NCBI GenBank assembly: GCA_014378105.1
Contig: JACMOI010000028.1
Coordinates: 1-39,890 of the forward strand
Direction of reading: 5' to 3'
DNA: 39,890 nucleotides
Origin: Pseudopedobacter sp.
GTDB lineage: Bacteria > Bacteroidota > Bacteroidia > Sphingobacteriales > Sphingobacteriaceae
The notes below the pieces were generated by a model. It saw only the letters and a program-made list of their open reading frames with translations, was not told where the DNA came from and did not search any database. A program made the translations under genes and the position numbers. Positions 34,704-39,890 of this stretch are shown one piece after another; within the stretch, counting starts at the first letter, position 1; every line of letters starts with the position of its first letter.

Positions 34704-35279
34704 ATGGAAGTAGATAAAATCAAAGAAAGTATCAAGAAAGCAGCGCAGGATCTCTTCCGTAAATATGGTTACCATAAAACCAGCGTAAACGAGATTGCTA
34801 AAAAAGCAAAAATTGCAAAAGCAACCATCTATAAATACTTCGAAAGTAAAGAGCTGGTTTTACATGCTATTTTAATGGATTATTTAAAAGTGAGTTTAAA
34901 TGAAGTCATCCATAAGTACAGTAAAAATATCAGCAAAGAAGAACATCTTAAGACACTTATTTTAAAAGTTAGTAAGCTTTCTTATACCGTTTGTAATGAG
35001 TTTATTGGTTGGGATTTTATTCGAGAATCTACTAATGCACAAGAGTTTTTAAAAGATCTTTCTGATGAATTAGAAAATCTACTTTATGCCGAGTTTATGA
35101 GTATTGAAGAACTAAATGATGACGAAACTTATCCCGAAAGGTTAAGATTTTTAATCAAAGCCAGCAAAAGCATCATCTTCTCTTTCGCATTTACCTCAGT
35201 TTCTGATGCCGATGTGAGAAAGAATTTTGTATCATTCCAAAAAGAGATTTTACCTTATTTGGTGAAGGCGGCATTGTAA
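34704..35279 (+). CDS. TetR/AcrR-family transcriptional regulator
   Basis: 191 aa. The N-terminal helix-turn-helix spans about residues 8-55: AAQDLFRKYGYHKTSVNEIA and KKAKIAKATIYKYFESKELV, a textbook TetR DNA-binding domain. The C-terminal helical ligand-binding domain is not assignable to a ligand. It starts 1 bp after the lipoprotein stop, so it is likely read from the pheS transcript. No efflux or membrane target gene lies beside it; its targets are unknown. Confidence 0.9.
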   Translation: MEVDKIKESIKKAAQDLFRKYGYHKTSVNEIAKKAKIAKATIYKYFESKELVLHAILMDYLKVSLNEVIHKYSKNISKEEHLKTLILKVSKLSYTVCNEFIGWDFIRESTNAQEFLKDLSDELENLLYAEFMSIEELNDDETYPERLRFLIKASKSIIFSFAFTSVSDADVRKNFVSFQKEILPYLVKAAL

Positions 35280-37199: not shown

Positions 37200-37229
37200 T
37201 TTTATACCGATTTGGTTTTCGGTATAAAA
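37200..37229. repeat. 11-bp perfect inverted repeat around a promoter -33 box
   Basis: TTTTATACCGA at 37200-37210 and TCGGTATAAAA at 37219-37229 are exact reverse complements, separated by an 8-nt loop TTTGGTTT. The loop's first four bases are the -33 box of the promoter below. This is the layout of an operator for a dimeric repressor or activator, and could also form a hairpin. Confidence 0.8.
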
Positions 37230-37242
37230 GTTGCTAATTTTG
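37211..37242 (+). promoter_or_regulatory. Near-consensus Bacteroidota promoter
   Basis: -33 box TTTG at 37211-37214 and -7 box TAATTTTG at 37235-37242 (TAnnTTTG) with a 20-bp spacer, the preferred arrangement for the Bacteroidota primary sigma factor. The -7 box ends 6 bp before the ATG of a 43-codon ORF. It is the best promoter in the window. Confidence 0.75.
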
Positions 37243-37248
37243 GCTTTA

Positions 37249-37380
37249 ATGAAAACAATAAATCATAATTCCATGAGTCCAGAGATACGTGATTTCTCTT
37301 ATATGATTGATGAGCAATTTGAAATAGTTGATAATCCTAACAAAGGCTTTTGGGCATTTATCTTCAGCTTTTTCAATTGA
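37249..37380 (+). CDS. 43-aa small protein, unrecognised
   Basis: ATG at 37249, TGA at 37378-37380. The protein begins MKTINHNSMSPEIRDFSYMI, has an acidic middle (DEQFEIVDNPNK) and ends in a strongly hydrophobic, Phe-rich tail (GFWAFIFSFFN). Net charge and the tail suggest a peptide that touches a membrane or a partner protein. Its support is the near-ideal promoter 6 bp upstream, with no other gene for that promoter to serve before rlmD, which has its own box. It is too short for routine gene calling. It resembles nothing I know. It could still be a regulatory leader or chance ORF. Confidence 0.55.
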   Translation: MKTINHNSMSPEIRDFSYMIDEQFEIVDNPNKGFWAFIFSFFN

Positions 37381-37503: not shown

Positions 37504-37511
37504 TAAATTTG
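37504..37511 (+). promoter_or_regulatory. Promoter -7 box for rlmD
   Basis: TAAATTTG, matching TAnnTTTG, ends 22 bp before the TTG start at 37534. No clear TTTG -33 box was found. Confidence 0.45.
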
Positions 37512-37533: not shown

Positions 37534-38931
37534 TTGAGAGAGCAAAAGATTTTATCCGCGTTGAGCGTATTTGATATTGCCGAAGAAGGCAAAGGTGTGG
37601 CAAGAGCCGAGGATTTAGTGGTGTTTATAGAAAAAGCCATTCCTGGAGATGTGGTAGATGCTGCCGTTTACAAAAAGAAAAAGAAATTTGCAGAAGCAAG
37701 GATTGAAACCTTAATCACTCCTTCTGTAGATAGAGTTATTCCATTTTGTGAACATTTTGGTATTTGCGGCGGCTGTAAATGGCAACACATGAATTATGCT
37801 GCTCAATTAAAATACAAGGAAAAATCGGTTTTAGATGCTTTGCAAAGATTAGCAGGATTAGAAACAGCTCATGCAGAGCCTATTTTACCCACTGCCCATG
37901 ATAAATATTACCGCAACAAATTAGAATATACATTTTCAAATAAACGCTGGCTAACAGATTTAGACGGAGAAATTACCGATGAGAAAGATAGGCTAGCTTT
38001 GGGTTTTCATGTTCCTTTACGTTTTGATAAAATTTTAGAAATCAATCATTGTTATTTACAAGCAGATCCATCAAACGACTTAAGAAACTCGATTTCTGCT
38101 TTTGCCAAAGAAAATGATATTTCATTTTACGATTTAAGATCGCATGAAGGTGCTTTAAGAAATTTGGTCATTAGAAGTTCTTCTACTGGAGAATTAATGG
38201 TGATTGTAATTTTTGCTTATCCAGAAGAAGGTCAGGTAGCGTTGATGATGGAATTTGTGAAAGCAAAATTCCCACAAATCACTTCGCTTTTATACATCAT
38301 CAATCAAAAGAAAAACGATACATTTTCTGATCAGGAAGTTTTGCTTTACAGTGGCCGTGAATTCATTTATGAAGAAATGGAGGGTTTAAAATTCCGTATC
38401 GGACCCAAATCTTTCTATCAAACCAATTCTTTACAGGCTTACGAATTGTATAAAATTACGCGTGATTTCGCTGATTTAAAAGGTGATGAATTGGTTTATG
38501 ATTTATATACCGGAACTGGAACTATTGCAAACTTCATTGCAAAAAAAGCAAAGAAAGTTGTAGGCGTAGAATATGTTCCAGATGCCATTGAAGACGCAAA
38601 AATCAATTCAAAAGTTAATGGGATTGACAATACCGTTTTCTACGCTGGCGATATGAAAGATGTTTTAAACAATGATTTCATCAATCAAAATGGAAAACCT
38701 GATGTGGTGATTACCGACCCACCTCGAGCTGGAATGCACCCAGACGTGGTCGAGCGTGTAATGGAAATAGGAGCCGAAAAGATTGTTTATGTAAGTTGTA
38801 ATGCAGCCACTCAAGCCCGCGATTTAATCCGTTTGAAAGAGAAGTACGAGTTGGTTCGCATCAAACCTGTGGACATGTTTCCACATACGCAACATGTAGA
38901 AAATGTGGTTTTATTAAAATTGAAGAAATGA
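37534..38931 (+). CDS. rlmD: 23S rRNA (uracil-C5)-methyltransferase, RlmD/RumA family
   Basis: 465 aa, starting at TTG (37534). The frame is open back only to 37507 and has no ATG or GTG, so TTG is the best start. An N-terminal TRAM domain (about 5-62) is followed by Fe-S ligands Cys72, Cys78 and Cys81 (FCEHFGICGGCKWQH) and probably Cys173. SAM motif I is DLYTGTGTIANFIA, then DPPRAGMHPDVV, the catalytic Cys422 in VSCNAATQARDL, and the general base Glu456 in QHVEN. It methylates a uracil of 23S rRNA at C5. RlmC, RlmD and RlmCD types are hard to separate by motif, so the exact U is uncertain. It overlaps the next gene by ATGA. Confidence 0.92.
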   Translation: MREQKILSALSVFDIAEEGKGVARAEDLVVFIEKAIPGDVVDAAVYKKKKKFAEARIETLITPSVDRVIPFCEHFGICGGCKWQHMNYAAQLKYKEKSVLDALQRLAGLETAHAEPILPTAHDKYYRNKLEYTFSNKRWLTDLDGEITDEKDRLALGFHVPLRFDKILEINHCYLQADPSNDLRNSISAFAKENDISFYDLRSHEGALRNLVIRSSSTGELMVIVIFAYPEEGQVALMMEFVKAKFPQITSLLYIINQKKNDTFSDQEVLLYSGREFIYEEMEGLKFRIGPKSFYQTNSLQAYELYKITRDFADLKGDELVYDLYTGTGTIANFIAKKAKKVVGVEYVPDAIEDAKINSKVNGIDNTVFYAGDMKDVLNNDFINQNGKPDVVITDPPRAGMHPDVVERVMEIGAEKIVYVSCNAATQARDLIRLKEKYELVRIKPVDMFPHTQHVENVVLLKLKK

Positions 38932-39409: not shown

Positions 39410-39586
39410 ATGCTTCTACAAACCGAAAGACTACAATTAAGAGAATTCACCTTAAACGACGGTGACTTTTTAATTGCGCTCTTAAACTCAGAAGCTTGGT
39501 TGAGGTTTATTGGAGAGCGACATGTAAAAACTATTCCACAAGCTTTAATTTATTTAAAAGAACGTATCGTCAAAAGCTGGAGTTAG
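39410..39586 (+). pseudogene. GNAT N-acetyltransferase gene, 5' part only, cut by an IS
   Basis: ATG at 39410. The first 56 or so codons read MLLQTERLQLREFTLNDGDF...LRFIGERHVKTIPQALIYLK, the usual start of RimJ/RimL-type GNAT acetyltransferases (about 165-180 aa when whole). At 39578 the sequence passes into the end of an IS3-family element, and the frame stops at TAG 39584-39586 after 58 codons. The acetyl-CoA-binding motif A region is therefore absent, and the gene is inactive as it stands. The rest may lie beyond the right end of the element, outside the window. Confidence 0.8.
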
Positions 39587-39645: not shown

Positions 39646-39890
39646 ATGAACAAACGCATGTTTGATGATTCCTTTAAAAAAATGGCCATAGATTTATCTA
39701 ACAGCAGAGGATCGGTAAAAGAGGTTGCAGAAGAGCTGGGTATCAACCACAGCCTATTGAGTAAATGGCGGCAACGAGGGTCAGAATCAAAACAGATTCC
39801 TGCTGTTTTGAGCGAAGACCAGAAAATGATTAAAAAGCTACAGAAAGAGCTGAAAGAGGCACAATTGGAGCGTGACATCTTAAAAAAGGC
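39646..39890 (+). CDS. IS3-family transposase OrfA, 3' end outside window
   Basis: 81 codons visible from the ATG at 39646. A helix-turn-helix of the HTH_Tnp_1 type lies at about 7-47 (FKKMAIDLSNSRGSVKEVAE, ELGINHSLLSKWRQRG), followed by a leucine-zipper-like coiled coil (LSEDQKMIKKLQKELKEAQL) and ERDILKKA, the normal run-up to the OrfA/OrfB junction in this family. OrfA binds the IS ends. A -1 frameshift onto orfB yields the OrfAB transposase; the heptamer for that is at 39882-39888. Confidence 0.92.
   Translation, partial: MNKRMFDDSFKKMAIDLSNSRGSVKEVAEELGINHSLLSKWRQRGSESKQIPAVLSEDQKMIKKLQKELKEAQLERDILKK
39882..39888 (+). promoter_or_regulatory. Probable -1 ribosomal frameshift heptamer in the IS
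   Basis: A_AAA_AAG in the correct phase relative to orfA: codons TTA-AAA-AAG with the heptamer starting at the last base of TTA. This is the classic slippery sequence of IS3-family elements. The usual downstream stimulatory structure lies outside the window. Confidence 0.7.

Follow-up and report, generated by a model that had tools for sequence, protein, structure and literature searches.

The window, by which we mean the whole 39,890-base stretch of DNA analysed here, carries an operator-like inverted repeat on the forward strand at 37200-37229, in which two perfectly complementary 11-bp arms (TTTTATACCGA, 37200-37210, and TCGGTATAAAA, 37219-37229) enclose an 8-nt loop (TTTGGTTT, 37211-37218). 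Within the repeat lies a 24-bp core, TATACCGATTTGGTTTTCGGTATA (37203-37226), for which the family consensus is TATACCRWTTTGGTTTTYGGTATA. A -33 element, TTTG (37211-37214), opens the loop, the -7 element TAATTTTG (37235-37242) follows at a distance of 20 bp, and an ATG at 37249 starts six bases past the latter box. The available parts of PMC6847099 and PMC7366714 give TTTG and TAnnTTTG as the promoter elements of the Bacteroidetes primary sigma factor (sigma-ABfr), and the 20-bp spacing in the window falls within the 19-21 bp of such promoters. Repeat, spacer and both boxes lie exactly where a sequence-only reading of this DNA had placed them. By itself the 11-bp repeat is not special by chance; the window contains four places with perfect 11-bp repeats (loops of 3-12 nt). 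The promoter pattern TTTG-N18-20-TAnnTTTG, scanned on both strands, has a single match in the window, and the 24-bp core with up to three mismatches occurs once against 0.01 expected from shuffles. Downstream on the same strand, and outside this unit, lies rlmD (37534-38931), encoding the 23S rRNA m5U1939 methyltransferase (TIGR00479, 344 bits, above the cut-off), with a separate -7 box, TAAATTTG (37504-37511), that begins 30 nt before its called start. Upstream, at 34704-35279, is a gene for a TetR-family protein, which in the usual arrangement has pheS on one side and the unit on the other; the protein is 81-99% identical in the 17 other genus genomes, where the arrangement is pheS, a 139-aa ORF and then TetR. 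Towards the contig end there is a short frame (39410-39586) that looks acetyltransferase-like by eye and has no Pfam match. After it comes an HTH_Tnp_1 transposase frame, cut off by the end of the contig at 39890; this is perhaps an insertion element.

The frame from 37249 to 37380 is open and would specify 43 residues ending in FWAFIFSFFN, which is the small protein that had been proposed from the sequence alone. Comparison with relatives, however, points to a shorter product. With the 43 residues as query, 14 of the 18 genus genomes were matched, the window's own included, and alignments to the others did not start until query residues 3-9; the ATG corresponding to 37273 is common to every relative read (13, 50 and 20 in three sets), whereas an earlier in-frame ATG past the last stop occurs in only 12 of 75 units, the window being one of them. 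According to the available part of PMC6847099, transcription starts 4-5 nt after the -7 box, and leaders in Flavobacterium johnsoniae average 33 nt; a start at 37273 would have a leader of about 25 nt and one at 37249 would be nearly leaderless. Because relatives align from the later ATG, and because of this difference in leader length, we assign the start to 37273 and reject 37249, so that the gene (37273-37380, forward strand, stop included) would encode a microprotein of 35 residues and the in-frame extension at 37249-37272, unaligned in relatives, would be non-coding leader RNA.

The coding nature of this frame is strongly supported by comparative data, its protein product being predicted. 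Over 75 distinct units (L119-L121, from the same genomes as L083, L085 and L071, and L247, identical to L080, are not counted), median dN/dS is 0.098 among 70 pairs with at least 75% DNA identity, 0.11 over 21 disjoint pairs and at most 0.70 (L051/L065), indicating purifying selection on the amino acids across species. Differences fall on codon positions 1, 2 and 3 in the numbers 234, 160 and 626, an excess at the third position. An earlier set, which still contained three duplicate genomes, gave 0.06 in frame (46 pairs), and shifting the frame raised this to 0.76 (35 usable pairs) and 1.70 (33 usable pairs). Homologues retain core and frame jointly, rather than keeping the promoter and losing the frame. 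A chance ORF is rejected by the profile matches, dN/dS and codon-position pattern alike, and the unlisted frame of the sequence-only reading is almost certainly a real regulated gene, albeit with a different start.

A profile that included Pedobacter members matched family genomes from 12 of 25 genera, 235 of 399 in all and 229 of the 380 good ones, and left 164 unmatched; an earlier profile had matched 216 of the 399, and an order-level draw gave 222 of 400. Seven of the 235 list two matches. Ten hits in that set, from genus g21, have E values of 0.0016-0.0096 and may be chance. The named matches belong to Pedobacter, Pseudopedobacter, Mucilaginibacter, Pelobium, Daejeonella, Hufsiella and several MAGs, with one more in a record labelled Flavihumibacter soli; Mucilaginibacter and Daejeonella are members of the Sphingobacteriaceae. 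A class-wide search matched 13 of 395 genomes. Twelve belong to the same family; the remaining match, in G429, falls within a 613-codon frame, and we judged it to be chance. As anticipated, the protein matches no known family above the cut-offs of Pfam and NCBIfam (window protein and up to five relatives), although L030 gave one sub-threshold NCBIfam match and two weak Pfam matches, and membership of a known family was rejected. Among PDB chains no relative of the microprotein was found. The window protein, as the only query, matched nothing from phages or plasmids, and an origin there was likewise rejected. The literature searched held nothing relevant on this small protein or on stretches of the core; the family may already be present in large small-protein catalogues as an unnamed cluster.

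The 24-bp core accompanies the gene in nearly all of the 75 units compared. Its best match to the consensus scores at least 19/24 in 73 of the 75 units (15 in L059 and L250), and it lies 31-46 nt before the ATG in 74, both properties holding together in 72; reversed sequences score 14-19 (19 in five of 75) and shuffles mostly 13-16. Mean pairwise identity reaches 0.82 in the core; the 30 bases upstream of it have 0.35, the stretch that follows it 0.44 and the first 60 coding bases 0.65. A column table of 74 of the 75 units gives the core 33.6 bits of information. The operator-like repeat over the -33 box, as the sequence-only reading saw it, is thus widely conserved across the family. In uncontrolled counts, a loose TAnn box (at least two of the four TTTG bases) lies 19-21 bp past the -33 box in 55 of 75 units and 16-22 bp past it in 72. 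The core has the two inverted, related and conserved half-sites of a dimer-bound operator, but the symmetry is only partly kept, since six of the eight arm pairs are complementary in only 33-60 of the 74 aligned units, the other two being so in 72 and 73. An asymmetric reader is possible on these alignments, since neither of the two arm pairs tested shows covariation (p = 1.0 each) and some relatives (L046, L069, L082) have a changed 3' arm. Conservation of the centre, GGTTTT, equals that of the arms, something that two half-sites would not demand. In Mucilaginibacter units (for example L071 and L073) the -7 box itself lies within a second inverted repeat, TTACTATG-TTTG-CATAGTAA, a feature that those units of the window's genus that were read do not show. 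The exception in spacing, L089, has a core of 23/24 lying 125 nt from the ATG, as if about 90 nt had been inserted.

In a 34-row alignment of the protein M1, E4, F8, S9, I12, D13 and F16 are invariant and E14 and F34 almost invariant; the wider set also has I in place of F8 and V in place of I12. AlphaFold2 predicts two helices both for the window protein (residues 3-20 and 24-34; 34 sequences, pLDDT 74.5) and for a Mucilaginibacter member (3-16 and 23-34; 31 sequences, pLDDT 78.7), with a pTM of 0.30-0.33 in both runs that leaves helix packing open. The second helix is a short hydrophobic one with amphipathic character (mean moment 0.44, z 1.9 over 67 proteins), a character less evident in the first (z 0.95). 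In 69 of the 75 units the protein carries a negative net charge, which argues against direct DNA binding by the microprotein.

These properties bear on several other accounts of the gene. A small membrane-active toxin in the style of type I toxin-antitoxin systems would suit the length, the Phe-rich hydrophobic end and the strong promoter, but it is very unlikely given the negative charge, a hydrophobic stretch of about 11 residues, a single match per genome in 228 of 235 genomes and the lack of phage or plasmid matches to the window protein; a search of Rfam for an antisense RNA found none. The suggestion of a membrane-acting peptide in the sequence-only reading likewise stays unproven, as the C-terminal segment is a predicted short amphipathic helix and falls short of the roughly 18 or more hydrophobic residues of a single transmembrane span. 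SulA and SidA are SOS-induced cell-division inhibitors, and a small protein behind a strong operator might be another of that type; yet this is extremely improbable, since the Sphingobacteriaceae SOS box described in the available part of PMC8565304, CTAA-N5-TTAG, is absent from the 160 nt upstream in all 75 units. The proposed role as a stress-response factor is equally unproven, the ilv sites described below pointing to metabolism instead. A non-coding DNA or RNA feature with the ORF as a by-product would account for a core more conserved than the ORF, but it is already refuted by the coding signal in the compared sequences (dN/dS and codon-position pattern); moreover, Rfam has no match at the unit and the core lies upstream of the -7 box.

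The position of the gene raises another alternative. Erm leader peptides precede another 23S rRNA methyltransferase and control it by attenuation or stalling, and the ORF might be a cis-acting leader peptide acting on rlmD in the same way. Indeed, 40 of 50 named loci, and 19 of 20 additional ones from seven genera, have rlmD on the same strand downstream of the unit. Nevertheless, a TAHHTTTG box is found near the called rlmD start (from 110 nt before to 45 nt after) in 41 of 41 loci, at most 30 nt upstream in 36, in agreement with the earlier remark that rlmD has a box of its own, and the distance from ORF start to rlmD start ranges from 153 to 857 nt. In nine of 49 evaluable named loci (the fiftieth, L089, ends near a contig edge) the unit, its core and frame intact, is not next to rlmD: L057, L058 and L081 have it beside a formyltransferase/ACT gene (Pfam on L057 only), L055, L060, L067, L087 and L093 have it following one FadL-type and one GDSL-type gene (Pfam on L055 only), and L069 has it elsewhere. 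The four pairs available among relocated units give dN/dS of 0.09-0.18, and the remaining further locus, L256, has no rlmD on its entire 4,096-base contig. The unit is thus not always in cis before rlmD on one transcript as a leader would be, and because relocated units keep core and reading frame, control of rlmD by such a leader is very improbable and, from the loci compared, already largely refuted. Since rlmD has its box in 41 of 41 loci and units relocate intact, the unit is very probably, on this comparative evidence, a transcription unit of its own.

What else the core might serve was also examined. A wide regulon of near-identical sites was rejected by control comparisons: the 18-bp centre with up to three mismatches was no commoner than its reversed control in 18 genus genomes, and exact ATACC-N12-GGTAT was not clearly enriched in 14 genomes (6 against 2 in the window's own, 15 against 19 in G066). 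The 24-bp core with up to three mismatches had 38 matches in the genus (control 3), comprising 14 units, 16 instances of one stretch read against the acetolactate synthase small-subunit gene (verified as coding in L108 and L117) and eight others. Four of the eight precede the start codon of a ketoacyl-ACP synthase III-like gene by 11-12 nt (L258-L261, from the window's own genome, G003, G016 and G017), each with three mismatches; the best NCBIfam match of this gene is 209.8 bits, below the cut-off of 249. One precedes ilvE (G010), one lies 22 nt before a 433-codon frame and two are inside coding frames. In a reciprocal test of 13 places, hand-picked from the core matches among sites not yet explained, seven (L160, L161, L163-L166 and L171, the last being the same record as L089) have the microprotein gene, including two genomes that the first profile had missed (L163, L164). 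Three Mucilaginibacter places (L159, L162, L167) carry the core, exact or with one or two mismatches, before a Methyltransf_24 gene, preceded in L159 by a SnoaL-like gene with msrB and msrA upstream (Pfam); two (L168, L169) lie before ilvD and one (L170) is inside a coding frame. L160 and L161, from one genome (G825), are near-identical copies of the unit with core and frame intact in both.

The sites before ilv genes were pursued with a matrix built from 43 distinct unit cores only, with no ilv site used. For the window's genus 13 genomes were fetched by distance from ilvN, a site being known beforehand only in G010, and in all 13 the best matrix site lies 326-382 nt before ilvE. Scores there are 7.1-23.0 bits, at least 15.9 in 12 loci, as against at most 8.0 elsewhere in the stretch, 10.3 in reversed sequences and 13.4 in six random sequences per locus; in 12 of the 13, which are related loci and not 13 independent events, the site at this orthologous control region exceeds every control run for its locus. 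The two weakest cases come from genomes without the microprotein: L278 scores 7.1 bits, below its own reversed control of 10.3, and L277 15.9, with one random sequence reaching 13.4. In Mucilaginibacter ilvD was located in seven of eight stretches, all seven having ATACC-N12-GGTAT-like arms (six exact, L237 with one mismatch); L230, L231 and L235 among them, like L168 and L169 from the reciprocal test, had been fetched with the site already known, L233, L234, L236 and L237 had not. A nine-stretch alignment places the Mucilaginibacter site in a conserved island about 210-285 nt before the ilvD start. A first search upstream of ilvD in the window's genus (seven loci located of 12 fetched) found no site because ilvE precedes ilvD there. 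No conserved ORF was seen on the strand opposite ilvD, and the literature searched on Mucilaginibacter, ilvD and a regulon held nothing relevant. In L267-L279 (window's genus) and in L230, L231, L233-L237, L168 and L169 (Mucilaginibacter) a conserved control island lies between atpC and the ilv operon. It contains a core-like site, which a second ATACC often overlaps, and some loci add a TATG...CATA box; at a greater distance, the strand opposite ilvE carries a conserved stretch resembling TTCTKCCTRAAA. Part of this island resembles a promoter pointing away from ilv.

The sequences make it probable that one regulator is common to the microprotein unit and the ilv operon. The likeness may instead be coincidental, a different factor with similar ATACC/GGTAT arms acting at ilv while the operator of the microprotein is private, and this we regard as a less probable but serious alternative: the ilv sites differ from the unit cores in the centre, the 164 family genomes without the microprotein are in keeping with it, and generic half-site pairs are not clearly enriched genome-wide. 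Against coincidence, the best site is at the same place in 13 of 13 loci and above all controls run in 12, the 3'-arm variant GGTTCA occurs at both kinds of site, and a second box, TATG-N3-5-CATA, is found near or after the core in 20 of 75 units and in four of 13 ilv loci (on the strand opposite ilvE) compared with 17 of 5,200 random windows. As to what binds, TetR proteins bind palindromes, and the conserved TetR-family protein of the window could be a candidate, being encoded no more than about 6 kb upstream of the unit in 35 of the 50 named loci, ending 68-94 nt before the microprotein gene in L053, L059, L070 and L080, and present in all 18 genus genomes, including four without the microprotein, two of which were checked and have the ilvE site (15.9 and a weak 7.1 bits). 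However, no site within three mismatches precedes its own operon in the window, position is the sole link, and any conserved regulator would fit equally; this assignment is unlikely.

Our best overall explanation, to which we give a probability of roughly 0.6, is that a dimeric regulator, common to this unit and the ilv operon, sits on DNA spanning the -33 box and governs a trans-acting two-helix microprotein. The unit would be a single-gene one, consisting of promoter, operator and 35-codon gene; the comparisons show that the gene is coding, begins at 37273 and travels with the promoter core, and that ilv has a related site upstream. One dimeric DNA-binding protein would recognise ATACC...GGTAT half-sites at the microprotein gene and at ilv; at the former it would cover the -33 box and block RNA polymerase until its signal changes. 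Repression fits best with an operator over the -33 box, and we lean slightly towards it over activation. The short mRNA would then yield a protein of two short helices, the first (E4, F8, S9, I12, D13, E14, F16) a likely docking face and the second, short, aromatic and amphipathic, perhaps binding the same partner or a membrane surface. The microprotein probably binds another protein and would act in trans, either inhibiting or serving as an adaptor, in a way linked to that same metabolic signal. Rather more tentatively, an undescribed regulator in the Sphingobacteriaceae, governing the synthesis of branched-chain amino acids, could have the core as its operator, with the microprotein as its most conserved output besides ilv, feeding back on the regulator or on a pathway enzyme, and the ketoacyl-ACP synthase III-like gene of the window's own genome as a possible third target; if it is one, branched-chain amino acids would be linked to branched fatty acids. 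A gene in more than half of the family genomes searched is invisible to the Pfam and NCBIfam libraries used, and its control element is more conserved than its product. The ilv-related site, together with so conserved an element, points to a regulator, not yet described, of central metabolism in a large environmental family, and hints that the microprotein itself works in metabolism, around branched-chain amino acids. The 24-bp core is a ready bait for that regulator, which makes the question directly testable.

In comparison with known systems, the promoter of the unit resembles sigma-ABfr promoters in its -33 TTTG, its -7 TAATTTTG, their 20-bp spacing and a transcription start predicted 4-5 nt past the -7 box (about 37247); unlike F. 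johnsoniae genome-wide, where the -33 element is weak according to the available part of PMC6847099, its -33 box lies inside a strongly conserved 24-bp core. A palindrome within the promoter is also a feature of Bacteroidetes LexA/SOS operators, those of Sphingobacteriaceae included, in the part of PMC8565304 available, but the core has a motif other than CTAA-N5-TTAG, and the available part of PMC12915131 offers no motif to compare with it. With Erm-type leaders the unit shares a short ORF ahead of a 23S rRNA methyltransferase gene in most loci read; it differs from them in that rlmD has its own box and in that the unit relocates without rlmD and stays conserved. Regulated bacterial microproteins of the SidA, MgtS and AcrZ class have their own regulated promoter and likely a single partner. 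The present protein departs from them in having no Pfam, NCBIfam or PDB match, in being mostly acidic and in its two short helices in place of one transmembrane helix, but it is like them in having fewer than 50 residues, a regulated promoter of its own, a size that annotation easily misses and, probably, one partner.
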